A stretch of 64,000 bases of DNA. It comes from Norana najaformis (Eukaryota > Annelida > Clitellata > Crassiclitellata > Hormogastridae). The position numbers and the translations under genes were made by a program. Shown here in pieces: positions 17,131 through 44,743 of this stretch. Positions within the stretch are counted from its first letter, which is position 1, and every line of letters begins with the position of its first letter. The notes under the pieces were generated by a model. That model did no database searches, was not told where the DNA came from, and worked only from the letters and a program-made list of their open reading frames with translations. The DNA is taken from positions 43,573,817-43,637,816 of the forward strand of contig OZ029914.1 in NCBI GenBank assembly GCA_964023275.1, written 5' to 3'.

Positions 17131-18740
17131 ATTCTACGCTCAGAGCCACCAGCCTGACTGCCCCTTGAACTCTCACTGTACAATGGTCTTCCAGTATCAT
17201 CTCTTCGAATAGTGTCTGTTCTCTCCAAGGAAGGCCTAGGATGGGTCGCTTCCCTAAAGGAATCAACACTGTAACTCTCGGTCTCGGAATCCGACTTTGC
17301 CTCTTCCGCGGTCGCCGGATGGGCAACGTCCTGAGGATGGCCTTTACTCAGAACAGGGTTCGTAACTTTACCGGCAATAGTCGTTCCCCTTCTGCGTGAG
17401 GACTTTCTCGTAACCACCATTCTACATCTCGTAACTCTCCAGTTACCGCCAATATTTTCGGACACCAGTCGTTTCCTCGGTTGCGGGAACAGGGAAGTCT
17501 CACAACGAGCCTCTGTGTCTTTCCGCCCTAGGCACAAGGATATGGGGTGACACATCTTCCCACAATCTCGCTCCATTTCCGTGTATAGGATTTCCGAAGT
17601 AAGTTTCCGCACCAGATCTCTGTTGGCAATTATCGACCAACAGTGCTTCAGAGGATAGGATACCCCATGGAACACTCAAGCGAAGGTCCCCTCTCTAACC
17701 TTTTGTAAAACACACCAACCTTCGTACCGACCTACGCACGAGGGGCCCTTCCTCGCACTTCAGTCAGTCTTCTGATCAGTGTGTGGCGACAAGCATATAG
17801 AGGAGTCGGTATCTTCCCGTCTCGACTCCGGTATTATCGGGGAACCGACCCAGACTATGATGTACCGGGTATTTTCTTGGTCTGCGTTAGTTTCCGGTCT
17901 CTTACGTACCGGGGCTTTACTTGGTCTGCGTTATGATCCGGTCTCTTACGTACCGGGGCTTTCTTTACTTGGTCTGCGTTATGATCCGCGGGTCTTCCCG
18001 TATCCCCGCTGTCTGAATTTCAACCGGGAGAACCGCGGCCGCGACTTTACCCGAGTTTCGCACAACCTGTTATCTTCCAACTATCGTGACTTACTCGACC
18101 GTCTCGCGACGTTCCAACAAGGTGGGCCCGAGCCTTGCTGGACCAACGGAGCCAGTCAGAAATCAGACAGATTGGTTTGTTTCGGTTGCGACCTCATCAG
18201 GAGCGCACGGACCAGTTTTCCATACGCCACGGGTTTTCTCGTACGGCAAATGCTACCCCGGGTTCACACAGACCTGTCTATTCGTATTTTCCCGAGCTCG
18301 CGCAGCCTCTATCTTCCAACTATCGTGACCTACTGGACCGTCTCGCGACGTTCCAACAAGGTGGGCCCGAGCCCTGCTGGACCAACGCGCAGCCAGTCAG
18401 AAATCAGACAGATTGGTTCGTAACGGCTGCGACGTTCCCGGGAGCGCACGGATCAGATTTTTCTCTTACGCGGTCAAAAGGGTAGCTTCCGCAACTTTCC
18501 CACTTGTTTTACACAGACCTGTATTTCTTTCTTTCGAACGGGGTTTTTCCCCGGGTTCTGTCCAACCTCAACGTCCACCGTCGTGGCCCAGGCCGCCCCG
18601 CGATCTACGGTAGAGCCCTCGCTCCACTCGGATCGGCGCCGTCAGCCCGAAGCCAGTCAGTGATTGTCTCGATCGTCCCGCCGGGAGCGCACAGATTAGA
18701 CTTTTCCCGGACTCTCTCGTCCGTATATTTTATCGTAACC
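17130..18740. repeat. CpG-rich block with nested tandem repeats
   Basis: 17870-18000 holds three copies of a 40-50 bp unit ('ggtctgcgttatgatccg', 'ctcttacgtaccggggcttt'). 18065-18720 holds three units of about 240 bp: 'atcttccaactatcgtgac' recurs at 18072 and 18311, and 'ggagcgcacg' at 18203, 18439 and 18681. Units 1 and 2 are close, unit 3 is divergent. Open frames on both strands have no recognisable protein. TGGCGAC at 17785 resembles a gypsy-type primer-binding start, so an LTR/leader origin is possible but unproven. Confidence 0.6.
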
Positions 18741-18849
18741 GGGGCGCGTATTCTTAGACCATACAGTGCTAGAACTATTATGCTATGTCGACCAATAGGA
18801 ATACCAGGTTATGTCGACCAAAAAATAGCGTGACCTAGCTTAGGCGAAA

Positions 18850-19011
18850 ATGGCGACCAATGGCGCTGGTTTCGAATGGTTGCCTGAAAAATTTCGTCCT
18901 TGGCATAAAATTAATTTAAAGAAGCTGAAGCATGATATCTTAGCATCTCCGTTGTGGTTAGCTCCTGCACAAACAGCGAATGAGCTAGCTATGCAGCTCC
19001 AGTCCACTTAA
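18850..19011 (+). pseudogene. LINE internal fragment inside the TIR element
   Basis: A short frame starting ATGGCGACC encodes about 54 residues, with FRPWHKINLKKLKHDIL and then LAPAQTANELAMQLQST. This resembles the linker between endonuclease and reverse transcriptase of CR1-like LINEs, where a 'DIRSSPL...LDSTL' pattern is usual. It stops after QST and is followed within about 50 bases by a LINE 3' end, so it may be an internally deleted LINE. Confidence 0.4.
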
Positions 19012-19054
19012 CATTTTTCTGCTAATAAGATTTCATTTAGTTCTCAGCTTTAAA

Positions 19055-19240
19055 GTTACCTGTCCGCCCAGATTTCTGTCTTGTGGACTGACCTTCTGGA
19101 TATTGACCTGAGTGTGGCTTGGTTTTGGCACACCATGGGTTGATGCCTTGTGCGTTAGACATCGGCGCATTGGAAGTTACTACTACTACCACTACTACCA
19201 CCACCACTACTAATTATTATTATTATTATTTATTTATTGT
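19055..19240 (+). mobile_element. LINE 3' end with (TAC)n/(TAT)n tail
   Basis: 'gtcttgtggactgaccttctg', 'gttgatgccttgtgcgttag' and 'catcggcgcattggaa', then TAC and TAT repeats. The same order ends the LINE at 45140-45405. 19400-21300 outside the TIR element shows no gene or repeat I can identify. Confidence 0.6.
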
Positions 19241-21365
19241 TAAATTTAAAACGAAGCAGTTTGAAGGACAGCAATAAACCTAAAGTAGGTCAAACTATTA
19301 ATAACTCGAATTCTATTGGTCGACATCAATTGCATTCCTATTGGTCGACATAGCATAATAGTTCTAGCACTGTATGGTCTAAGAATACGCAACCGGGGCA
19401 GTATCGAACACGGCTTCTCCGGGCGTCACCCTCGTCTGTATATATGTATTTGTATACGCTATGAATTCGCTCACAGAACGATATCAAAACACTGTAACTC
19501 GTATATGTCAAGTCACGCATCCATCCTTGACGACAACAGCAAATCGCCACGCGACACTCTATTCAACCCTCGTTTCCTATTTACGCCGGTTTGCTTATAT
19601 ACTAGCATGCTTGATAAAACGTAAATAAAGGTGTCTAACTGTTAATGATTACTTGGCTTAAAACAAACATTTTAGGGCCTATAAATTTCAACAATTTTAT
19701 CCATTACTTTACTAAAATTATACTAAGAAGTTTGCACGGCCTAATTATTAAGCTATTGTTAGATTAAGCTTAAATTTAATAAAAATTAATTTCTAAAAAT
19801 CCTACACAGGTAACACGGCCGAACCGTGCACATAAGCACAGCACTTAATGGCTACCTAAATCGGGTCATAACTACTCTCGCCTCTTACCTAACAGGTTTG
19901 TCTTGTGGCCGATCCGCCACACTCACTTCTTGCAATTGCTACTGTATTCGAAGGAAATGTAGTTAATATGGCTGATGCACCTGTAAATTACCAGAATACG
20001 AGTCGAAAATTTTTTAAATGTTAGGAACGGTCTTTATGCAATTTAACATAGTCCAACAACCAGTCAACTCATTTACTTTCATATATAATGTACAAGGATG
20101 AAATCGGTCATGTGGAATTATTTACAGGAAGTGTGAACAGGTGTTGGGTAAGATGCCTGAAGTAGGATTCATGACTCATGATATGCAATAGAACTAGACC
20201 ACTGTCGACTAGACTTTCATATTTCACTTGACTAACATCGGTTGGCGTCTTTACTCTAGCATTTGCCTGCTATAATCGTTGACAAGGCATTAAACTCAAG
20301 TTTGTGGAATTATTTTAAGCCTCAATTGTAGCCAGTTATTGGAAAACAGCATGAGTTATTTAGATGTAGTGATACAGCAACTAGTGAGATTTTATGGCAG
20401 AGGGTTATCCAGTTAGCAAGAAATATCATAGCCGCGCTATTTTACGTCATGTGAAATTAACACATATCGCACTGTCGAGCTGTGCGCAGCCTCGGAGGCA
20501 ATCTTGAATGGATCTGGAGATTTCTATAGAGCCTTTCGTAAAAGTGCAAAGCAGCTTGTATATGAGTACTATCGTAAAATCTATTAATTAAATGTTGCGT
20601 GATTTACGCACTGTTTCTCGATATTTAATTAGAAGTTCGCGACCTGATTAAAGATTTAATTATATAACTTACCTGTTATCAAGCTTGCTACCGCAAACAA
20701 AGTGAACATGGTAATCGGCTAAAAGTTATCTGCAGTATGCAGTTGTTTACTGAACTGTCTAGAACTAGAAATTAAATATTTATACCCAGCATAAACCATC
20801 AGCCAATGCGAAAAACTGAGTTAAGAACGATTGCTGTGTACTTTAAAACCGGATTTAAAGCACTTATGAGTCACTTCTGGAGCTAACGGTTATAAGCATA
20901 TGGGATAAAGCAGGCTAATTCAAAACAAGATGCACAGTGTGCCCGCAGCTATTAGGAGAGAGTGCTCTAAGATGCCCAGGTCGAATAAGACGCTCACCCC
21001 CTTTAAAACGTAACTAAAGATAGAATTTCGCATTTTAGTTGTATCTTTGCATGTAGCGACATCTTGCGAACTTTCAGTTGCAACGGCATTAAAATATTTT
21101 AGGTATTGGCGTGGTTACGTGATTTTTTAAATTTTGACTACTTTTCTGTAAGCACGCAATTACGAATTTGCTTATTTTTCTCTGTAACCTTATGCACTAC
21201 TCAGATGTGAATTTTCACGTTTATACTGGGTTAAGTTTTGGGTGTTTCAGTGGTTTTATCAAATTTTTAAAGTAGAGCTAGTTAACCAAAATGGCGTCAA
21301 TAGAGTAGGACTAGTAAAATTACAAGATGTCCATGGGCGTCTTGAATACATTGGAAGCATAGAGA

Positions 21366-22843
21366 TTGCAAGATGCCCATGGGCATGTAACGGAATCGGG
21401 CGCGTGGTGTGACGCCACCGTTAGCTGTCGGGAGAGCCCGGAGGAAAGAACTGGAAAAGTGTCTGATGACGGCAACGGGTTCGAATCCAGAGTAGTCGAA
21501 TGTGCAACTCGACTTCGTACAATACCCGGTCCATAATAAGTGGGGCGGTTTCGAACTCAATCTCGTACTCCTGCGAAGGACAGGAAGTGACTTAAATCCT
21601 TCTGCCATTCGTTCACCAGGTGGCCAAGTGTTGTCCAAGGCAGCCGGATGGGCCGCTACCCCCTCTGATAGAGCGTAAGGGTTCGTGGTGGCTTTCCCAA
21701 CAGACTTTTCTACTTCGGTACCTGAGCGCTGCATAATATCCGACATAGGCGCTACATGAATTTGATCCGATTTAGGCCCTAGCTCAGCTTGTCGCTGCAA
21801 CAATTCCTCTCGCAATTGATCCTGGCGCTCTATCAATTCACTTCGTAACTGATCCTGGCGCTGTGCTAAATCTTCTCTTAGCGAGGACAGAGAGGTGAAT
21901 ATAGACTCTATTACATTACGGAAATCTGCATCAGCCATTTCTTTCTTTTAATAATTTATTCACAATTAAAAGACTCGACTCTAGCCTTTACGACTTATTT
22001 TACATCAATATTCTACTAATTATAATTTATACACGTCTCAAAGGTTCTAGTGTACAACAATTGCTAATTCGAACCTGAAACCTATGTACTAATAGAAAAC
22101 TGGTTGCCTGACATGAATTTAAGGAAATTTGCCCTTAAACTGAATATAAAAGAAAACATTCGACTCCCTGATAACAACGACAATCTCGTCTTCCTTGGAC
22201 AATTGCGAAGACAAGGTTTAATCCAGAGATTATTCCATGCACTTCCTGACGACACGTTTTGACGGAGCAATTTCCCCGGTACGAAATTTCGACAGAAATT
22301 TGATACATCCAATTTTAGATCCAAAGCACACGACAAGAAATTTTCCCGTCGCAACTTCGATAGCGCCCAACGTAATAGACGGTATTCCAAAAGAATTGCA
22401 ATTTTCGATTAAATTCGATCGATCTCGAAGATTCCATCGATTATATCCCAGTTGGCAGTCGACCGCTTCATTAAATATCGATTTCAACCGCAGAAATTTA
22501 GTTTCAGAGCCGAAAATCAAACTTTTCTCGGAAATCAACTAAACTCTCAGCTACAGCTCCTTACTTGTCAACTTCCAAGCGGCAACTGAACTTCGATGCG
22601 TCGCAATAGGCCAGCTTCCCTGGTCACGTGACCACATCCGGGCACTTTTGGCGCGAGAAACCGGTTCCAACCAGTCTGCAGCCGGATTGCATCATCCTAG
22701 CTAAAAATAACTCGCCTCAGCAGCCGAATACAGTAAGAGCTCAGGCCACCCGCATCGATCGATAAAACAATCATCACTACTACCGAATTAGCTGCCTGAT
22801 TAAACGCACACCTATCGGGCGCTACAGTGATTTTTGTTACACT
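21366..22843 (-). mobile_element. Gypsy 3' LTR plus leader and truncated second gag
   Basis: Reading the minus strand from 22843 (TGTAACAAAAATCACTG) this is the 3' LTR of the element to the right, but it continues into a leader and the first ~190 codons of gag (start at 21938). It matches 29377-30854 with, by eye, one substitution and one extra G at 21542-21545 that shifts the frame. The match stops at 21366. So a second element, truncated inside gag, follows the first in tandem and shares an LTR with it. Confidence 0.75.
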
Positions 22844-23631: not shown

Positions 23632-23934
23632 TTACATTCGATATCGAAGCGGTTTTTGTATAACTCGATGGGGCCGTGTACTTCTAACCACGTCCTCATC
23701 TTCTGCTTCCGATACCTCAGCCACGGGTGATTCGAACTCGTCAACAATCTGCTCTCTTCCCCCGCCGAAATTTGGTTCAGTATCTCCGAAGTAAGGTTTT
23801 AATTTATCGATGTAAACACACTTCGGTTGAGCCCTGGAAGATCTCTGTATCCGAAACAAAACCGGGCTAAGGCATTCCAAAATTTTGTATGGTCCAGTAT
23901 ACAATCTGGCCCCATTTGTCTTTAACTCCCACAC
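23632..23934 (-). CDS. Gypsy integrase C-terminal end (GPY/F region)
   Basis: ARLYTGPYKILECLSPVLF and the following KCVYIDKLKPYFG are the GPY/F module of Ty3/gypsy integrases; an acidic tail follows and the frame ends at 23632. No chromodomain is seen. It is out of frame with the catalytic core by one base; the shift falls at a C4 run (23910-23913). Confidence 0.75.
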   Translation of the reverse strand: MWELKTNGARLYTGPYKILECLSPVLFRIQRSSRAQPKCVYIDKLKPYFGDTEPNFGGGREQIVDEFESPVAEVSEAEDEDVVRSTRPHRVIQKPLRYRM

Positions 23935-24958
23935 GTTTCCTTGGGCAAAAGTACCAAACCCATTGACCCACTGTAAAGGTGGCAGGCCGGACCCTTAAAT
24001 TATATCTGGCAGCTCGTGTGGTGGCCATGCGCTTGGAATACAATCTGACTTCTTCATACATAGATTGGATACGAGTGCAAGCTTCCTCCACAAAGTCTTC
24101 TGAGCTCAACCGATTAGATTCTTTAAGGTTACAATCTCCCAAAACCAAATCGATAGGCAAGTACACATCCCGGTTCAAAAATAATCGATTAGGACTGAAC
24201 CCAGTACTTTCGTGTTCAGTGGCTCTATAAGCAGCCATGACCACGGGAAGACAAACGTCCCAATTTTTCTGATTTAAAGACACAATTTTGCCCAACATTG
24301 CATTTAACGTGCGATGGAACCGTTCCACAACTCCGTTGGTACTAGGTTTGTACGGTGAAGTACGTATTTTATCAATCTGGAATCGACGACAGAGTTCCTG
24401 AAAGAGAGAAGCCTCGAAGCAAGGCCCCTGGTCGGTCAGAATCTGGCGAGGACATCCGTAGCGCGAAAAGACCTGTTCGACGAGGACACGTGCTACCGTT
24501 ACAGCCTCTTGATTACGGATCGGAAAAGCCTCAGCCCAGCGCGTGAAATGGTCGACCACCGTTAATATGTAACGATAGCCCTTACTGGAGACCGGATGTG
24601 GCCCAGTAATGTCAATACCGAAGCGTTCCATTGGTTCCCCGACTAGCATCGACTGTAGTTGTCCTTGACGGGAGGGTTTGCCTCGTTGGTACTGTGCACA
24701 AACGGAACATTTCCTCAGCTGAATTCGGGCAAATTCTCTCCAACCTGGCCAGTATGCGCGTTTCTGTAGTTGCTTCAAGGTTCGTCGAAGGCCCAGATGA
24801 CCTCCAGACATGCCTTCATGTGCTAACCGGAACAGGGTAGAACGACGACTCGGTGGAGCGATCAGTTGTGACCACCGTACTTGTCCACTTTCTACGTCCA
24901 GCCAATCACGAAGCAGTAAGCCATCGGTCACTCGTAACTGTGGCCATTGCGAGACCAA
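23867..24958 (-). CDS. Gypsy integrase: zinc-binding and catalytic core
   Basis: The H-H-C-C zinc module (HEGMSGGHLG, then CSVCAQ) is followed by the catalytic D, D and E: FGIDITGP, LTDQGPCFEA and NGVVERFHRTL. It catalyses insertion of the cDNA into host DNA. The frame begins at a non-ATG codon because it is really a continuation of the RT/RNase H frame, offset by one base at a T6 run (25021-25026). Confidence 0.85.
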   Translation of the reverse strand: MVSQWPQLRVTDGLLLRDWLDVESGQVRWSQLIAPPSRRSTLFRLAHEGMSGGHLGLRRTLKQLQKRAYWPGWREFARIQLRKCSVCAQYQRGKPSRQGQLQSMLVGEPMERFGIDITGPHPVSSKGYRYILTVVDHFTRWAEAFPIRNQEAVTVARVLVEQVFSRYGCPRQILTDQGPCFEASLFQELCRRFQIDKIRTSPYKPSTNGVVERFHRTLNAMLGKIVSLNQKNWDVCLPVVMAAYRATEHESTGFSPNRLFLNRDVYLPIDLVLGDCNLKESNRLSSEDFVEEACTRIQSMYEEVRLYSKRMATTRAARYNLRVRPATFTVGQWVWYFCPRKRVGVKDKWGQIVYWTIQNFGMP

Positions 24959-25007
24959 TGTTTTAATAGTTCCACTTAAAGGCCTGATATCTTCATGAGT
25001 TGGTGCC

Positions 25008-27179
25008 TCATTTGATTGTATTTTTTCTCTGAATGATCCACCTCAAATCTGGGTCATTCTGTTGTTCTCGACCTAATGTTTCACAATCCCAAGCCAAAGG
25101 ACGATCAACATCTTGCTGCAGATTGTCAGAGACTTCATGGATAGCCGTTATCTGATACGGACGACGAGACATTGCATCAGCATTCAAATGCGTTGTTCCG
25201 GTCCTGTGCTGAATTTCAAAATCGAACTCTTCTACGATAGCCAACCATCTAGCTTGCTGACCAATAGGTAGCGGTGTTTTTCTAAGCCATTGTAATGCTG
25301 AATGGTCTGTTCGTAACAGAAATCTTCTCCCAAGTAAGTATTGGCGAAATGTCTTCAGAAAGAAAACAATGGCCAAAAGTTCACGTCTGGTTACGTCGTA
25401 ATTCTTCTCTGCTGACGAACATAGACGACTCCCATAACTGATCACTCGCTCCTGTCCATCTTGCATTTGGGACAATACAGCTCCTATGGCTTCGCCGGAA
25501 GCATCAGTGTCCAACACATACATTCCTTTATCGTCCGGTAAGGCCAGTATCGGAGCTTCGGTAAGGCGACCTTTTAACTCGTTAAATGCCTCCTCACAAG
25601 CATCAGTCCAGCAGAATGACACTCCTTTTCTAGTCATTGCATGTAACGGACGGGCTATCTGTGCAAACTCTGGTACGAACTTTCTGTAGTAAGAGCAAAG
25701 ACCAAGGAAAGCTCTCACATCTCGCAGTCGTCGAGGTGTCGGCCAACTCTTCACAGCTTCGACTTTGTCCGGATCGGTAGCTACTCCTTCTTCACTAACG
25801 ATATGGCCTAAGAACAAAACTTTCCTTTGCAGCAAATGGCACTTGGATGGCTTAAGTTTTAAGTTAACCGCTGCCAGCCGTTGCAAAACCTGTGACAACC
25901 TTTCCAGATGTATGTCCAAATCGGAAGCGAAGACAATTACATCGTCTAGATAAATCAGACAAATTGAGAAATGTAATCCCGTCATGACCAAATTCATCAT
26001 ACGCGAGAACGTAGCTGGACTGTTACATAACCCAAATGGAAGAACTTTGAAGTGAAAACTTCCACGACGGGTTACAAATGCCGTCTTGTGTCGATCCCGA
26101 GGATGAACAGCTACTTGATGATATCCTGCACGCAGATCAAATGTGCTAAACCATTTAGCTCCTCCTAGCGAGTCAAGACTTTCACTGATGAGAGGCAATG
26201 GATAAGCGTCTTTGCGAGTCTTAGTATTCAAAGCTCGATAATCAACGCAAAAGCGAGGTGTTCCATCTCTTTTACGGACCATGACGACATTGCTAGCCCA
26301 CTCTGACATGGACGGTTCGATTAGGCCTTGTTGCAGCATTTGTTCTACCTGTTCATCGATGACTGGTAAGAGGGTCAACGGTTGTCTCCTGAGAGGTTGA
26401 CGTACTGGAGCTTCATTTCCCGTATCGATCTCATGTTGTATAACATCCGTAAATCCCAAGTCCCAATCACCTAACGAAAATGCTTTACGGTTGTCGAGGA
26501 TCAGTTGGCGTAGACGACGTTTCACTTCAGTAGGTACGTCCTCAGCCACGTCTGTCCACAATGGTGCAAGAACGGATTCAGTATCTGCACTCAGTCTGTC
26601 TTCCACGACTTCGTTTACAGCAGCACCTTGACCAACCACCGCAGATTCAGAATCGATTTCGACCAACTCCACCTCTTCAGCTGAACACTGAACACCTCTA
26701 CGCACACGTATGTCCTTTGAAGTCGGATTCAACATTCTGACAATCAAGTCCGTGGTTCTAGATGGCAGCAGGGTTCCAGCGACGACTAACCCAGACTCCA
26801 GCACTTGCGGTGAAGTAGCCCACTGTGTCTGATCGAGCTTCAAACTCGGTACAACAGCATATGCTTCAACATCCATCTCACTGAAAGCTGGCACCTGTAC
26901 ATCACGAGCTACAACAATTCTTCGACACTGTCCAGAACGTTTCTGACTATAGACTGGAAAAATATGTCCTTGTATTTGTATTCTTTTCTGTCCAAAGTCC
27001 CATTGAGCCTGCTGTTGTTCTAACCACTCCAAGCCGAAGATTAGCTCACTCAATTGCTCGGACACCAAACACGGTACGTTGAATGAATAACCATCAACTT
27101 CACACTCCAGAACTGTTTCTCCTAATACCCCGGATAGCTGTACCATTGGCCGCACGGAGCAACTGTTCAGAATATACAA
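25008..27179 (-). CDS. Gypsy protease end, reverse transcriptase and RNase H
   Basis: 723 residues. The first ~70 complete the protease fold. Reverse transcriptase carries FCVDYRALN, FDLRAGYHQV, the LPFGLCNSPATF box and the active site YLDD. RNase H follows with the catalytic Asp in LDTDASG, Glu in RRELLAI and Asp in LRTDHSALQWL. All core residues are present. The upstream shift from gag falls in the middle of the protease at a C4 run (27128-27131), so the first Met here is not the real start. Confidence 0.9.
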   Translation of the reverse strand: MYILNSCSVRPMVQLSGVLGETVLECEVDGYSFNVPCLVSEQLSELIFGLEWLEQQQAQWDFGQKRIQIQGHIFPVYSQKRSGQCRRIVVARDVQVPAFSEMDVEAYAVVPSLKLDQTQWATSPQVLESGLVVAGTLLPSRTTDLIVRMLNPTSKDIRVRRGVQCSAEEVELVEIDSESAVVGQGAAVNEVVEDRLSADTESVLAPLWTDVAEDVPTEVKRRLRQLILDNRKAFSLGDWDLGFTDVIQHEIDTGNEAPVRQPLRRQPLTLLPVIDEQVEQMLQQGLIEPSMSEWASNVVMVRKRDGTPRFCVDYRALNTKTRKDAYPLPLISESLDSLGGAKWFSTFDLRAGYHQVAVHPRDRHKTAFVTRRGSFHFKVLPFGLCNSPATFSRMMNLVMTGLHFSICLIYLDDVIVFASDLDIHLERLSQVLQRLAAVNLKLKPSKCHLLQRKVLFLGHIVSEEGVATDPDKVEAVKSWPTPRRLRDVRAFLGLCSYYRKFVPEFAQIARPLHAMTRKGVSFCWTDACEEAFNELKGRLTEAPILALPDDKGMYVLDTDASGEAIGAVLSQMQDGQERVISYGSRLCSSAEKNYDVTRRELLAIVFFLKTFRQYLLGRRFLLRTDHSALQWLRKTPLPIGQQARWLAIVEEFDFEIQHRTGTTHLNADAMSRRPYQITAIHEVSDNLQQDVDRPLAWDCETLGREQQNDPDLRWIIQRKNTIK

Positions 27180-29949
27180 TGTCCTTCTTTTTAACTACTG
27201 ACGCTGGAGCCAGACACATTTCGCTTCCTGTATCGATTAATGCCAGAATAGTACGTCCGTTCACTCTCAATGGTAAGTAGGCGTTCGTACTTCCGCTGAT
27301 GTATCTCGTATTGGCTGGTTCCTGTTGACTGACGTCATGGTTCTCGTCTTGTGATGGCCAACGGCGATAAGGACAGTTACGAGCTCTGTGGTAAGGCTCT
27401 CGACAATTAAAACAGACTCCATCCCATCTTCCTCTGTTTCGGTTATCCGTAAATTGTCTCCCATTCTGCCAGCCTACAGCATTTCCTTGCCTTTGCTGTT
27501 GAGTTGTTATAGTTCCACCTGTTTCACCTCTTGATCTCTGTGATCCTTTAAGTATGGCTAACTCTTTTTCTAATTGATCCATACGACGTTTCCACTCAAC
27601 CATTGTATCTTTACTTCGTGGCGATTCATCTCTTGATTGTTTAACTTCTTTTATCGCCTTAACTCGTCCTGCCCGGCGTTCAGAATGTTCAAAAGGTTCT
27701 TCATCAGCCTTTCTGTAGCCATCGAGTCTCATAGCCAACTTGTACGCACTGTCTAAGGTTTCCGGTTCACGTTCTCTCACTTTCAGAGCCAAAGTTTTGT
27801 CTTTCAAGGCATCAAGAAAGGCACGAACAGCTATAGTTTCACTGTGAATTGACGGTGGACCAGGATAAGCTAATGTCATTAAACGTCGGATATCCTGAAC
27901 CAACAAATTGAAATCCTCTCCATCCCGTTGTTTTCTAGTAGCCAACTGAGTTTGGTAGAGTGACGCTTGATCTGTACTTCCATAACGAGCTCGAAGTCTT
28001 TTGACCAGGTCAGACCAAGTCAACACAGTAGCAGAATCAAACTCCCACAAGATCTGGTTAGCTGGTTCAGTTAATGCACACATAAGTTGATTTAACCTTT
28101 CTTCATCTGTCCAACCATTATTCCGAGCACATACCTCAAATTTCCTGATAAAAGCTTCAACGGCTGATTTTCCATTGTAATATCCCAACTTTATCCATTG
28201 GCGTGGTTTATCAGGAGAAACACTCGTCACTGAATCATTACCTGACAAACTTGATGAGATGGTTGCTGTTGTAGCCGCCACAGTCGATGTCTTCAGGTTG
28301 TCATCTGTTGTCTCTTTTACTGTAAGAGTGCTTTGATTTGAAGCAACAGTCGGCAACGCAGACATCACTGGTTTCACCGAAGTTTGCACCTCTGTTGACA
28401 CCGAAGATGTAACAATAGTTGGTTCTACCCTTTTACTCGAGATGTTCAGTTTTTCTTTACATTCCTTTCTCACTTCAGCACCTTCGACTTGAGAAGAACG
28501 AGAACAACTTGGCACAACTTTGTTATCATCATGTTCAGTTCCACTTACGACTGAGGCATGACATGGCATTCTCTGTTCCAACTCCGTAGTAAAGCATGGC
28601 CAGGCAGACGATACAGCTCCATAGACATGTGAGACTGGAGGCAACGGTTGTACAACTGGAACTGGATGGAGACCAGCTCCCGGCATCCACCAATGAGGCA
28701 AAGACCAGGGCGTTCCAGAGGACGGTATGTAGAACGGTTGGTTTGACGTAGGCCATGGCACATTTCCAACAACAGTAGAAGGATGCGGCGCGAGAGTGAC
28801 GAAGGACGGATTAGGACCATCGTTGCACATTGCAGACGTTGTTCCATACCAGGTTGCTATTCCACGCTGTGGAACACACCTGGATGTAAGAGACACAGTA
28901 GCAGCGTTCCGTTGAACATGCGCGACAGGAGGCGATGGAAACGGAGGCTGTAACGACGTGGTAGCACGCTGTGGCGGAAACGCACTCGCGAGGTTAACCC
29001 GTGACGAAACAGCACACGTTGACGTGGTGGTGGAAAGAATAGCTGACGCCGCCGACCGAAGAATTGAGTTGTCACTCACGAGTTTTTCCATACGTTGAGT
29101 GACAGGCTGCGATGTTGGGCAAAACGTAGCTCTATCTGGATAACCAGACTCATAACCGGGACGTCTGCTTCCATCAAGCACAGACCAAGACATTTCTTGA
29201 ATCTGGCTTTCATCCACTTCAGCCGACGCAACCCGAATTTGGACTTGCTCGTTATTTCCCCAATTACGATCCGCACCTGAAACAAACTGTTCCATGTCAG
29301 AAAACCATTTTTCTTCCTCATACCTTAACTCATCTACCTTTGACATATTAGGCCTAATTTCTATATTATCTTCAGGATTGCAAGATGCCCATGGGCATGT
29401 AACGGAATCGGGCGCGTGGTGTGACGCCACCGTTAGCTGTCGGGAGAGCCCGGAGGAAAGAACTGGAAAAGTGTCTGATGACGGCAACGGGTTCGAATCC
29501 AGAGTAGTCGAATGTGCAACTCGACTTCGTACAATACCCGGTCCATAATAAGTGGGCGGTTTCGAACTCAATCTCGTACTCCTGCGAAGGACAGGAAGTG
29601 ACTTAAATCCTTCTGCCATTCGTTCACCAGGTGGCCAAGTGTTGTCCAAGGCAGCCGGATGGGCCGCTACCCCCTCTGATAGAGCGTAAGGGTTCGTGGT
29701 GGCTTTCCCAACAGACTTTTCTACTTCGGTACCTGAGCGCTGCATAATTTCCGACATAGGCGCTACATGAATTTGATCCGATTTAGGCCCTAGCTCAGCT
29801 TGTCGCTGCAACAATTCCTCTCGCAATTGATCCTGGCGCTCTATCAATTCACTTCGTAACTGATCCTGGCGCTGTGCTAAATCTTCTCTTAGCGAGGACA
29901 GAGAGGTGAATATAGACTCTATTACATTACGGAAATCTGCATCAGCCAT
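27100..29949 (-). CDS. Gypsy Gag with protease start
   Basis: 949 residues from MADADF. An N-terminal heptad-like repeat (REDLAQRQDQL, ELIERQDQL, ELLQRQAEL) is followed by a long Ser/Pro-rich stretch. The capsid region has WIKLGYYNGKSAVEAFIRKF, then WTDEERLNQLMCAL. A CCHC zinc knuckle (CFNCREPYHRARNC) follows, then the aspartic protease active site LIDTGSE. After that the frame leaves the protease. The frame start matches the truncated gag at 21938. Length is large for gypsy Gag because of the Ser/Pro stretch. Confidence 0.85.
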   Translation of the reverse strand: MADADFRNVIESIFTSLSSLREDLAQRQDQLRSELIERQDQLREELLQRQAELGPKSDQIHVAPMSEIMQRSGTEVEKSVGKATTNPYALSEGVAAHPAALDNTWPPGERMAEGFKSLPVLRRSTRLSSKPPTYYGPGIVRSRVAHSTTLDSNPLPSSDTFPVLSSGLSRQLTVASHHAPDSVTCPWASCNPEDNIEIRPNMSKVDELRYEEEKWFSDMEQFVSGADRNWGNNEQVQIRVASAEVDESQIQEMSWSVLDGSRRPGYESGYPDRATFCPTSQPVTQRMEKLVSDNSILRSAASAILSTTTSTCAVSSRVNLASAFPPQRATTSLQPPFPSPPVAHVQRNAATVSLTSRCVPQRGIATWYGTTSAMCNDGPNPSFVTLAPHPSTVVGNVPWPTSNQPFYIPSSGTPWSLPHWWMPGAGLHPVPVVQPLPPVSHVYGAVSSAWPCFTTELEQRMPCHASVVSGTEHDDNKVVPSCSRSSQVEGAEVRKECKEKLNISSKRVEPTIVTSSVSTEVQTSVKPVMSALPTVASNQSTLTVKETTDDNLKTSTVAATTATISSSLSGNDSVTSVSPDKPRQWIKLGYYNGKSAVEAFIRKFEVCARNNGWTDEERLNQLMCALTEPANQILWEFDSATVLTWSDLVKRLRARYGSTDQASLYQTQLATRKQRDGEDFNLLVQDIRRLMTLAYPGPPSIHSETIAVRAFLDALKDKTLALKVREREPETLDSAYKLAMRLDGYRKADEEPFEHSERRAGRVKAIKEVKQSRDESPRSKDTMVEWKRRMDQLEKELAILKGSQRSRGETGGTITTQQQRQGNAVGWQNGRQFTDNRNRGRWDGVCFNCREPYHRARNCPYRRWPSQDENHDVSQQEPANTRYISGSTNAYLPLRVNGRTILALIDTGSEMCLAPASVVKKKDIVYSEQLLRAANGTAIRGIRRNSSGV

Positions 29950-30854
29950 TTCTTTCTTTTAATAATTTATTCACAATTAAAAGACTCGACTCTAGCCTTT
30001 ACGACTTATTTTACATCAATATTCTACTAATTATAATTTATACACGTCTCAAAGGTTCTAGTGTACAACAATTGCTAATTCGAACCTGAAACCTATGTAC
30101 TAATAGAAAACTGGTTGCCTGACATGAATTTAAGGAAATTTGCCCTTAAACTGAATATAAAAGAAAACATTCGACTCCCTGATAACAACGACAATCTCGT
30201 CTTCCTTGGACAATTGCGAAGACAAGGTTTAATCCAGAGATTATTCCATGCACTTCCTGACGACACGTTTTGACGGAGCAATTTCCCCGGTACGAAATTT
30301 CGACAGAAATTTGATACATCCAATTTTAGATCCAAAGCACACGACAAGAAATTTTCCCGTCGCAACTTCGATAGCGCCCAACGTAATAGACGGTATTCCA
30401 AAAGAATTGCAATTTTCGATTAAATTCGATCGATCTCGAAGATTCCATCGATTATATCCCAGTTGGCAGTCGACCGCTTCATTAAATATCGATTTCAACC
30501 GCAGAAATTTAGTTTCAGAGCCGAAAATCAAACTTTTCTCGGAAATCAACTAAACTCTCAGCTACAGCTCCTTACTTGTCAACTTCCAAGCGGCAACTGA
30601 ACTTCGATGCGTCGCAATAGGCCAGCTTCCCTGGTCACGTGACCACATCCGGGCACTTTTGGCGCGAGAAACCGGTTCCAACCAGTCTGCAGCCGGATTG
30701 CATCATCCTAGCTAAAAATAACTCGCCTCAGCAGCCGAATACAGTAAGAGCTCAGGCCACCCGCATCGATCGATAAAACAATCATCACTACTACCGAATT
30801 AGCTGCCTGATTAAACGCACACCTATCGGGCGCTACAGTGATTTTTGTTACAGG
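29950..30854 (-). mobile_element. Gypsy 5' LTR and leader
   Basis: Starts at 30854 with TGTAACAAAAATCACTG, the same as at 22843. The inner LTR edge and primer-binding site could not be located: no clean TGG-type site was found, and both copies of this region are the same, so they do not help. Period from LTR start to LTR start is 8,011 bp. Short 100-residue frames on both strands are shadows. Confidence 0.7.
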
Positions 30855-40558: not shown

Positions 40559-41374
40559 GTATGGCAATCAGAAAGGCCATATACAGACAATCAGAAAGAC
40601 ACAATGTATGGCAATTACAAATCAAACTGTATGGCAATTGCGAATCAAAAATCAAACTGTATGGCAATTGCGAATCAAGCTGTATGGCAATTGCGAATCA
40701 AAAATCAAACTGTATGGCAATAAGAAAGGCCATATACAGACAATCAGAAAGACAGACAATCAGAAAGACACAATGAATGGCAATTACAAATCAAACTGTA
40801 TGGCAATTGCGAATCAAAAATCAAACTGTATGGCAATTACAAATCAAACTGTATGGCAATCAGAAAGGCCATATACAGACAATCAGAAAGACAATCAGAA
40901 AGACACAATGTATGGCAATTACAAATCAAACTGTATGGCAATTGCGAATCAAAAATCAAACTGTATGGCAATTACAAATCAAACTGTATGGCAATCAGAA
41001 AGGCCATATACAGACAATCAGAAAGACAATCAGAAAGACACAATGTATGGCAATTACAAATCAAACTGTATGGCAACTGCGAATCAAACTGTATGGCAAC
41101 TGCGAATCAAACTGTATGGCAATTGCGAATCAAACTGTATGGCAACTGCGAACCAAAATCAAACTGTATGGCAATTGCGAATCAAACTGTATGGCAATTG
41201 CGAATCAAGCTGTATGGCAATTACAAATCAAACTGTATGGCAATCAGAAAGGCCATATACAGACAATCAGAAAGACACAATGTAAGGCAATTACATATCA
41301 AACTGTATGGCAATTGCGAATCAAAAATCAAGCTGTATGGCAACTGCGAATCAAACTGTACGGCAGTTATAAAT
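40559..41374 (+). repeat. Minisatellite of ~23-bp units (CTGTATGGCAATTRCRAATCAAA)
   Basis: About 800 bases built from a unit of the form CTGTATGGCAAT + TGCGAATCAAA or TACAAATCAAA, mixed with a longer block containing 'cagaaaggccatatacagac'. Blocks recur as higher-order units of about 130 bases (40700-41050). Open frames in all three plus-strand phases result from the repeat and are not genes. Confidence 0.9.
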
Positions 41375-43199
41375 CATGATCAGTGTGAAACTGTTTGAAA
41401 CATGGTACCACACACAGCGCAGGCTCTGAGGGGCAAGTTTCACAAAAATAATGCGTTTCTTTACGCCTTCCTTGTTTCCTACAAACCACACACTTCCTGC
41501 AAGGTCCGGCTTTGGTGGCAGTTACTGGGATGACATCCAAATAGTGCTGTCCACTGAGTCGGGACAGGTCAGAAGCCTTGTGGTGCTTGAAAGCCATCGA
41601 TGGTGCGGCTGCCTCTGGTCGATCCTGGCTTCCCAGCAAAGATCGAACAACATTTGTACGGAACCAAATCTGGCGCTTAGTTCCTCCAAGCTTCTTGTAG
41701 AGAAGGAAGGCATTTGTCACCGCCGCTTCGATCATCTGTAGGACCACCTTTCTGTACCACTTCAGAGACTTCCTCAGTGATGTGTAGTACGACAGAACTT
41801 GGTCCATTCGGTCCACGCCACACATGAAGTTGTTGTAGTCGAAGACGCAGTCCGGCTTCTTCACAAACTGGCCACTTCTGTTCCTTTTGCGACTGTCTGC
41901 AATAAGCCCCACGTGATGAGTTGACAACATCAGAACGTCCCTCTTGTCTTTCCATTCCAGCACTATGATGTTGCCATTTTGACGTACGATATGTTGTCCA
42001 ATTCGCAGTTTTGCAGATGTAACTGCAGCAGGTAGATGTTTCCTGTTCCGCCTCAAGGTTCCACATAGCAGAGTTTTCATACTGAGTAAGGCCTTTGCAA
42101 GAGGAACGCTGGTGTAGAAATTATCGACGTACAGTTCGTAACCCTGGTCAAGAATCTTTTCCATTAGTTTCAGGACAACACTCTCAGCATGACCGAAACC
42201 AGATATGGGATCCGACTTTCCACAGTAAACGAGCATGTTCCACACATATCCACTTGATTCACAGAGCATGTACAATTTTATCCCACACTTATGTCTCTTC
42301 CCTGGAATGTACTGCCTGAATAAAAGCCGTCCTTTCCACAGAACCATTGACTCATCAATAGACAGCTCTTTTTCTGGAGTATATGCTGCCTGAAATCGAG
42401 ATATTAGTGCCTCGTAAATTCCCCTCATCTTGAACAAACGGTCACCTTCAATCTGTTCCTCGTTGTTACAGAAATGCCAGAACTTCAGCAGCAACTCAAA
42501 CCTATCACGTGGCATTATGTTGTTAAAAACTGGCGTAGCAAGAACTGGATCTGTAGACCAGTAATCTTCAATGTGTGGCTTCTTCACAATGCCCATCATC
42601 AGCATCGTTCCCAAGAACTTCTTCATTTCTGTGGAGTCAGTTGGTACCCATCTCCGAGCTCTGCTTTTCTGTGAAAGAGTTGCACTGGCAAAGAACTGTT
42701 CAGCAAATCTATTAGTTTCAGTAACCAAAAGGCCTAGAATTTCCTCAGTAACAAAACACTTGAAAAAATCCACAGGCAAACTATGAACAGTCAAAGAGTC
42801 ACACATCACATCTGGTTTTGCTGTAAAAGTGAAATCCACATTTGGACTGTAATTGGCATCCACTGGTTCCCAGATATCCTGTGTGGCTTGGACTGCAGCT
42901 GTAGAAGCTGTTGGGGCAACCGATGGGGCTGGTGGAGGACTGCTTTCGCCTTCATCGGACTCACCTGGAGCAGTGGCCACGTGGACTGATGATGGATAGT
43001 AGATTTCAGTCCCATCGCTGTCTCCGCTTTCAACTGCAACCGCTGGTTCGTCGTCACTTATTTCGTAATTGCTATCTCTATCATCGTCACTATCATCAAA
43101 CGATTCCTCATCAGATTCCAACAACTTCTGCACAACTTGCTGCACGCTAAACCGCTTCGCTCTCGAGTAATTCATTTCGAATCGTAATGCTAATATCAC
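41367..43199 (-). CDS. piggyBac-type transposase, intact frame
   Basis: 610 residues. The acidic N-terminus (EESFDDSDDDRDSNYEISDD) is followed by the DDE_Tnp_1_7 domain: FLGTMLMMGIVKKPHIEDYW, first Asp in LSIDESMV (about residue 285), second in LYVDNFYTS (about 370), third in CGVDRMDQ (about 465). A Cys/His-rich end (CRKCVVC, CETCPSE, FKQFHTDHDL) matches the C-terminal cross-brace domain that binds transposon ends. Length and all key residues fit family norms, so it could be active or domesticated. A start at the internal MNYSRAKRF is also plausible. The stop codon lies in the last degenerate unit of the adjacent minisatellite. Confidence 0.9.
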   Translation of the reverse strand: MILALRFEMNYSRAKRFSVQQVVQKLLESDEESFDDSDDDRDSNYEISDDEPAVAVESGDSDGTEIYYPSSVHVATAPGESDEGESSPPPAPSVAPTASTAAVQATQDIWEPVDANYSPNVDFTFTAKPDVMCDSLTVHSLPVDFFKCFVTEEILGLLVTETNRFAEQFFASATLSQKSRARRWVPTDSTEMKKFLGTMLMMGIVKKPHIEDYWSTDPVLATPVFNNIMPRDRFELLLKFWHFCNNEEQIEGDRLFKMRGIYEALISRFQAAYTPEKELSIDESMVLWKGRLLFRQYIPGKRHKCGIKLYMLCESSGYVWNMLVYCGKSDPISGFGHAESVVLKLMEKILDQGYELYVDNFYTSVPLAKALLSMKTLLCGTLRRNRKHLPAAVTSAKLRIGQHIVRQNGNIIVLEWKDKRDVLMLSTHHVGLIADSRKRNRSGQFVKKPDCVFDYNNFMCGVDRMDQVLSYYTSLRKSLKWYRKVVLQMIEAAVTNAFLLYKKLGGTKRQIWFRTNVVRSLLGSQDRPEAAAPSMAFKHHKASDLSRLSGQHYLDVIPVTATKAGPCRKCVVCRKQGRRKETHYFCETCPSEPALCVVPCFKQFHTDHDL

Positions 43200-44743
43200 T
43201 CGCTATCGTCAAGATGGCTGACAATCATGAAAGGACCATAGATGCTTCATTCAAAGCTTTTTCACTAGAAAGTTCTCAAAAATAATCTTTCAGGCATTCG
43301 ATAGGTGGCAGGACATGTCCGCTATTACTACTAAGCGGCAGGAATATTACTGGGACGCTGAATTGGCTGGAAACAGCTGATATCTGAAGGACGTGTTTAC
43401 ACGTCCGTAGCGTCTCGGCTATACAATTGTGGGACCTGTTAACACGTCCCTCGCGACCAACGTGTAAGTACTATATTCAACTAAGTACATTGCTTAAAAT
43501 AAAAGCAGACATGGCAGTTATTACCATTTCAGATAATCGCAACATATACATATCAGAGGGCACAGAATTGTTTTTAAAATCTGTCGCTGTCCTAAGCTAT
43601 GAAGTTGACATAATAACAAAATCAGTGCTAAAGAGTATGTGTACAGACAGACGTAACACGAGTTTTATTAATTTGAATCTTTTTATGTGTTTTTACAATG
43701 TTGATAAAATGTTGCAATAGCCATTTGTAAGAAGCAAAATTGCCAGTTCAGTCGTTGGAGCTAATTTCTGCTGAAATAAAATATAATCAAAACTAAAAGT
43801 TAAACTCAACGTGCAAATTTGTCATTGTAGAAATGACAAATTCATGTCAAGGGCACATATTAAATGCAATACCTTCATTTATTCGTCCTGTCAAAAGCCG
43901 CCTTCTTCCTACTTTTGTTGACTGTCCAGTCATTGCTCTGCTTTGGGCTTTTGTCTGGCTTTTATAGCCAGACCAGTAATTCAGTCGCACATCTGACGTG
44001 TATATTTATAGCGCAAACTAAAACCCCACGCGAACATGGTCACCATTCGGTCAGAAGTATGGTCACGCGTGTGAGTTTAGACAGCAGTGATATCGGTCAA
44101 AGATTACTGTTTCATGAGTTTTATTTTGCATCCCGAATGTAGCCTTTATAGGATCTAATGCCTAAACTAATGTAAACTGAGTGCCACGATTCTCCTTCGT
44201 AAAACTGAGGTTTATAACATTTTCGATTTTGAACTGTTTTGACCATAATGTGACTGCATTGAGTAGAATTCCGTACACATTTTAAACTTTGAAAAGATAT
44301 ACAACACGGCGACGATAGTCGAGCTTCATAGGTGGTCGTCGATGCGTTGCGAGGTCTATTGTCCAATGACTCTGTACAATCACAATATGCATTCAAATTA
44401 TTATTACTTCACCAGGAAGTCTGGGCGTCCAGAGCCTTTCGGTCTTGTCCTATATATGCCGCTGGCTAAACAAGCAAGCTCATTAACCAGTCACACGCAA
44501 TCTTATTTCTTAAATGCAGTACCTTGCTTTATTCTACTTCATCACGTCACACATAAATGGATTGTATGCACTGGTAGATATATGCAGTGCATACACACTA
44601 GTCGTGTCTTATGTATGATCACTGTGGACCCTAGCAGGGGTACCAGGATGCATAGTTTCCTACTTATCTCAGCCCATGCACTCATTCACTATATGCTTAA
44701 AGGGGCATTATTCGTCTGGTGCTTTGCTGAAATGTGGTGCTGC

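Follow-up and report, generated by a model that had tools for sequence, protein, structure and literature searches.

The 64,000-nucleotide stretch of the Norana najaformis genome analysed here (the window) carries a 645-bp transposable element, measured from one terminal inverted repeat (TIR) to the other, whose parts are listed in Table 1. Sequence comparison across all 64,000 bases established that the left TIR (18746-18802) has one other occurrence in the window, at 19334-19390, where it reads as the perfect reverse complement (57/57), and that the 9-mer abutting both ends, AACCGGGGC, occurs nowhere else in it, so the perfect inverted ends and direct 9-bp flanks that the original prediction assigned to this element are exact. 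A 21-nt end pattern, allowing up to three mismatches, had 76 forward and 64 reverse matches genome-wide, compared with 8 and 2 for a reversed control pattern; this recurrence, together with the 57-bp exact repeat, excludes a chance origin of the inverted ends. The subterminal motifs at 18788 and 18814 are possible transposase-binding sites.

Table 1. Parts of the 645-bp element and its target-site duplication, in window coordinates
Feature	Position	Strand	Basis or remark
Left 9-bp target-site duplication, AACCGGGGC	18737..18745	.	Single copy (AACCGGGAC) in paralogous empty sites L018 and L021
Left terminal inverted repeat, 57 bp	18746..18802	+	57/57 complementary to 19334-19390
5' end of a Mutator-like element (MULE), element positions 1-151	18746..18896	+	Alignment to 5' end of 6.1-kb copy L050
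Subterminal motif TCGACCAA, two copies (18788, 18814)	18788..18821	+	Sequence
Remnant of transposase exon 1, MATNGAGFEWLPEKF versus MATEGARFEWLPENF in L050	18850..18896	+	
LINE piece 1, region between endonuclease and reverse transcriptase	18889..19007	+	90% to L054:730-848; frame RPWHKINLKKLKHDILASPLW...
LINE piece 2, C-terminus and 3' end	19033..19182	+	Short matches near L054 3' end
Simple-repeat tail, (TAC)n then (TTA)n	19183..19240	+	Direct reading
3' copy of 19-bp sequence GGCAGTYTGAGGGACAGCA	19255..19273	+	2 mismatches to query GGCAGTTTGAGGGACAGCA
Subterminal motif TTGGTCGA, two copies (19316, 19341)	19316..19348	-	Two further motif copies
Right terminal inverted repeat, 57 bp	19334..19390	-	Exact match to left TIR
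Right 9-bp target-site duplication	19391..19399	.	

Other mobile elements appear to lie in the same window. An N-terminal frame reading KKEMADADFRN... occurs twice (21297-21947 and 27100-29958), its second copy preceding long gag/pol-like frames (25008-27194, 23867-25042); judged by eye, the latter frame and the gag/pol-like frames form a candidate Gypsy-like LTR element. A 611-aa minus-strand frame at 41367-43202, which by eye resembles a piggyBac transposase, is a further candidate.

The genome searched comprises 608 Mb in 17 contigs, and the whole element had at least 154 matches in it (40 of 2,634 candidates scored). We read 46 sequences, namely the window copy and loci L009-L053, drawn from the best matches and the listed ends, a choice that leaves decayed copies under-represented. 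Both ends were recognizable in 37 of the 46 (15 nt, at most two mismatches) and one end was missing in nine, so the genome search for these ends that the original prediction proposed recovers a dispersed family, and the shared 9-bp duplications it looked for are there as well: the duplication is perfect in 28 of the 37 two-ended copies and matches at eight or nine positions in 33 (8/9 in L037, L041, L044, L047 and L050). Four copies have no clear duplication (7/9 in L024, apparently through a 2-bp insertion; 5/9 in L030; 3/9 in each of L048 and L049), and we count these, along with the nine one-ended sequences, against assignment to the MULEs. When lengths of 6 to 12 were compared in 17 copies, with the damaged-end loci L018, L019, L020 and L025 left out, full matches were found at length 9 only, in 16 of the 17. 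In two loci (L020:2500-2640 and L025:2760-2850) one end is shortened, and after it the flank is repeated with the target sequence included, a structure that might be left by interrupted gap repair.

The 645-bp family is fairly young in relative terms, in line with the recent movement originally proposed. The TIR arms agree at 55-57 of 57 positions among the 17 copies; with simple repeats left out, K2P distances between the window copy and the 16 others run from 0.36% to 5.5% (median 1.46%), and the mean among all 17 is 1.9%, or 1.5% without L021.

Unoccupied versions of the insertion sites were sought by joining the flanks across each insertion, with the 9 bp kept once. The site of the window copy was matched without the element in L018 (85%, 227 bp aligned) and in L021 (84%, 178 bp aligned); both have a single copy of the 9 bp, AACCGGGAC. 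Paralogous empty sites could be aligned for this copy and seven others, weakly on one side for L043. The window itself contains the empty sites of copies L036 (17709-17947), L009 (11013-11130 and 54677-54794, plus two weaker ones), L023 (7434-7574), L039 (44774-44896) and L043 (63604-63713). All of these are paralogous repeats rather than alleles, and several deviate by one or two bases from the 9-bp duplication; both points count against the MULE reading.

A longer copy with the same ends, L050 (C11:23798971-23805081, 6,111 bp), points to the enzyme that would move the short form. Its three predicted exons, with splice sites picked by eye, join in frame into an uninterrupted 776 aa, and a scan placed the Pfam MULE domain in the last of them (PF10551, 40 bits against a cut-off of 27.6, E 5.7e-10). 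L050 shares with the 645-bp element its ends, its 9-bp duplication length and the first 151 bp, an alignment that takes in the transposase start codon; near its end, L050 has a repeat about 33 bp longer than that of the 645-bp element. The autonomous MULE copy anticipated in the original prediction thus has a candidate in this longer copy, and the Mutator-like affinity proposed from the 9-bp duplication is borne out by the domain it carries. Three features of L050 weigh on the other side: its C-terminal SWIM-like stretch scores below the cut-off (PF04434, 17.4 against 19.6 bits), its own target duplication is 8/9, and its 3' end region is partly duplicated, giving three copies of the 19-bp sequence rather than two. 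A second long copy, L049, whose transposase is broken up with reverse transcriptase frames of another retroelement between the pieces, counts against the reading in having no target duplication. Searching the genome with a 120-aa piece of the transposase gave 17 matches, of which three fell below 50% identity, and the transposase had no match among phage records. A MULE-type DDE transposase in a same-ended copy, a duplication within the 8-11 bp range and long TIRs place the family in the MULE superfamily, and the ends and adjoining sequence held in common with L050 mark the short form as a non-autonomous derivative of an L050-type MULE. We are highly confident that the 645-bp element is a non-autonomous MULE that arose by deletion; it is non-coding and is probably moved by the Mutator-type transposase of larger relatives in the same genome.

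The original prediction had made no mention of a target preference, and we found a marked one: the 645-bp element inserts mostly at CCCGG/CCGGG-like sites. Among the 33 duplications matching at eight or nine positions, position 4 is C in all 33, position 6 is G and position 5 is C or G in 32 each, with C at position 3 in 29 and G at position 7 in 26. Twenty of the 33 are centred on CCSGG, 31 have the central C-S-G and 32 contain CG. An alternative reading attributes the apparent preference not to a choice by the transposase but to survival bias or to insertions having fallen into a few GC-rich repeats. Several copies do lie within the same repeats (L023, L052 and L014; L050 and L051; L026 in part), and the flanks are about ninefold richer in CCSGG than the sequence read as a whole (0.62% versus 0.07% of 9-mers). 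Against this, the motif holds a fixed register inside the duplication, and when the same-site copies L051 and L052 are dropped, CCSGG still accounts for 18 of 31 duplications and C-S-G for 29 of 31, compared with 0.62% and 3.5% of the 9-mers in the copies' own flanks; this 31-copy count retains L014, which shares the site of L023, and L026 partly overlaps the L050/L051 repeat. We therefore regard such an origin of the preference as unlikely. On balance we favor, with some reserve, a transposase in this MULE lineage that recognizes a palindromic CCSGG target, with a CpG in it, at the midpoint of the 9-bp stagger. If so, this MULE is selective for sequence and strikes identical sites in CCGG-rich repeats time after time. 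Within shared repeats, the same or nearby CCGGG-rich sites have been hit by several copies, in both orientations, at L023, L052 and L014, at L050 and L051, and at window 17700-18740.

The middle of the 645-bp element consists of pieces of a LINE. Element positions 144-262 align to L054:730-848 at 90% over 119 bp, 288-318 corresponds to L054:2830-2860 and 330-357 to L054:2892-2919; from the positions of these pieces on L054, about 2 kb including the reverse transcriptase is missing, so the internally deleted LINE named in the original prediction holds up. L054 is the fetched part of an element with a 1,089-aa frame, open over its first 957 residues as fetched, and has the reverse transcriptase (RVT_1, 3.9e-36) and endonuclease (Exo_endo_phos_2, 4.5e-10) domains expected of the parent LINE family. 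Stretches in L030, L039, L019 and L035, in our reading LINE 3' ends, align as far as element positions 437, 436, 437 and 422, respectively. The 38-aa LINE piece had at least 150 matches (150 of 916 candidates scored); some of these are copies of the element itself, whose frames measure 55 aa, and others belong to frames as long as 1,124 aa. The frame of the 645-bp element runs from the transposase start straight into the LINE, and the 53-aa window frame had no domain in a Pfam scan, as follows from its being a fusion of the MULE start and a LINE linker. The LINE was also considered as the driver of mobility and ruled out by the fixed inverted ends and 9-bp duplication, which are not LINE-style ends.

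How the LINE came to lie there is best read from the long copies. In L050 and L049, the LINE-derived block extends from at or upstream of the endonuclease to the simple-repeat tail and has GGCAGTYTGAGGGACAGCA on both sides (three copies in L050, two in L049), a structure that fits retrotransposition and makes insertion of the LINE into the MULE the most likely route; the 645-bp form holds the 3' copy only, and no 5' copy was found in it. The LINE 3' end and the same adjoining MULE sequence are common to L050, L049 and the 645-bp form. The two long copies keep other LINE parts than the short form does (L054 1-146 or 1-164, 1040-1228 and 2892 onward), from which we infer separate internal deletions. 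The original wording, 'captured or invaded', left two routes open. Under the first, genomic LINE fragments would have been copied between MULE ends in the manner of a Pack-MULE, with no retrotransposition into the MULE. Acquisition of foreign fragments by MULEs is described in the accessible portions of PMC6446971 and PMC8277862, the MULE/LINE junction of the 645-bp form (element 144-151) has a short shared sequence, either TTTCG without mismatch or eight bases (AAATTTCG) with one mismatch in L050, and a 414-bp copy, L029, has a different, non-LINE interior, so other fragments did enter such elements. A Pack-MULE would hold an ectopic copy without an integration signature of its own, whereas the LINE block of L050 and L049 is bracketed by the 19-bp sequence. 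This disfavors capture, which we consider very improbable, and strongly indicates the invasion half of the original wording, with the 3' part of the MULE as the place where the LINE went in.

The interiors of other copies are also rearranged. Units of about 96 bp, made up of the LINE tail and adjoining MULE sequence, stand in tandem in L022, L026, L028, L044, L050 and L051, and copy lengths cluster near 740 and 835 bp. A 3.5-kb copy contains a 2.85-kb block (L030:3814-6664) with a repeat of about 27 bp of LINE sequence at both sides; by eye, the final ~190 bp of this block also makes up the greater part of what lies inside the 414-bp copy.

Merlin, hAT and P elements also make 7-9 bp duplications, and one 4.5-kb copy (L036) has a THAP/P-type transposase between the same ends, but that the family belongs to such a superfamily, with the MULE gene of L050 an accidental passenger, has next to no probability, as this P-type element is nested, having 42-nt inverted repeats of its own and, by eye, the 7-bp direct repeat CTATTAC, and the MULE transposase start sits in the 5' end common to the 645-bp form and L050, which already contradicts a passenger. 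The nested element (L036:3559-7323), whose 42-nt inverted repeats surround CAAAGATCTTAG, encodes TNP-like RNase H domains and THAP pieces. Its 723-aa P-type transposase was considered as the partner enzyme and rejected on account of these separate repeats.

We envision the non-autonomous MULE arising in a few steps. A LINE would have retrotransposed into the 3' part of a MULE, and an internal deletion would then have removed the transposase together with the LINE reverse transcriptase, probably when the gap repair that followed excision was interrupted at short homology. The short product, having kept both ends, could be moved in trans by the MULE transposase in a cut-and-paste reaction; the cut would be staggered by 9 bp, at sites presumably chosen by the transposase and for the most part having CCSGG at their centre.

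Target preference aside, this is an ordinary non-autonomous MULE family, new as a family but of a well-known kind. The MULE/MuDR superfamily is described, in the accessible portion of PMC6446971, as having 8-11 bp duplications, long TIRs and a zinc-binding motif such as SWIM; the partner's MULE domain, the duplication length within that range and the long TIRs agree with it, the partner's C-terminal SWIM-like stretch scores below the cut-off, and the strong palindromic CCSGG target and the LINE remnants making up much of the internal sequence are points of difference. Muta1 of Aedes aegypti, as far as the available text of PMC5225508 describes it, is an active animal MULE that duplicates 8 or 9 bp of its target, shows little or no target preference and has many short non-autonomous derivatives whose interiors are of diverse origin. 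The family reported here is likewise an animal MULE with many short copies and diverse interiors, but its clear duplications are all 9 bp and CCSGG is preferred. As in Pack-MULEs and Pack-TIRs, in the part of PMC8277862 available, DNA transposon ends enclose foreign sequence that is re-mobilised as a unit; unlike the copied host gene of a Pack-MULE, the cargo here is a retrotransposon whose most likely route into the element was insertion. MuTAnT of Medicago truncatula is, by the available portion of PMC4486113, also a MULE family with a specific target preference, for TA microsatellites rather than CCSGG. In the open-access literature searched, we found no direct precedent for a LINE-carrying MULE or for a CCGG-type MULE target, and we claim no wider absence of either.

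Overall, the family illustrates cleanly how a DNA transposon can outlive invasion by a LINE, lose its gene and spread with retrotransposon debris as filler. With a transposase copy that looks uninterrupted and a large number of young substrates, transposition is directly testable. Its notable target preference for CCSGG, unusual beside Muta1, would be useful for asking how MULE transposases choose their sites.
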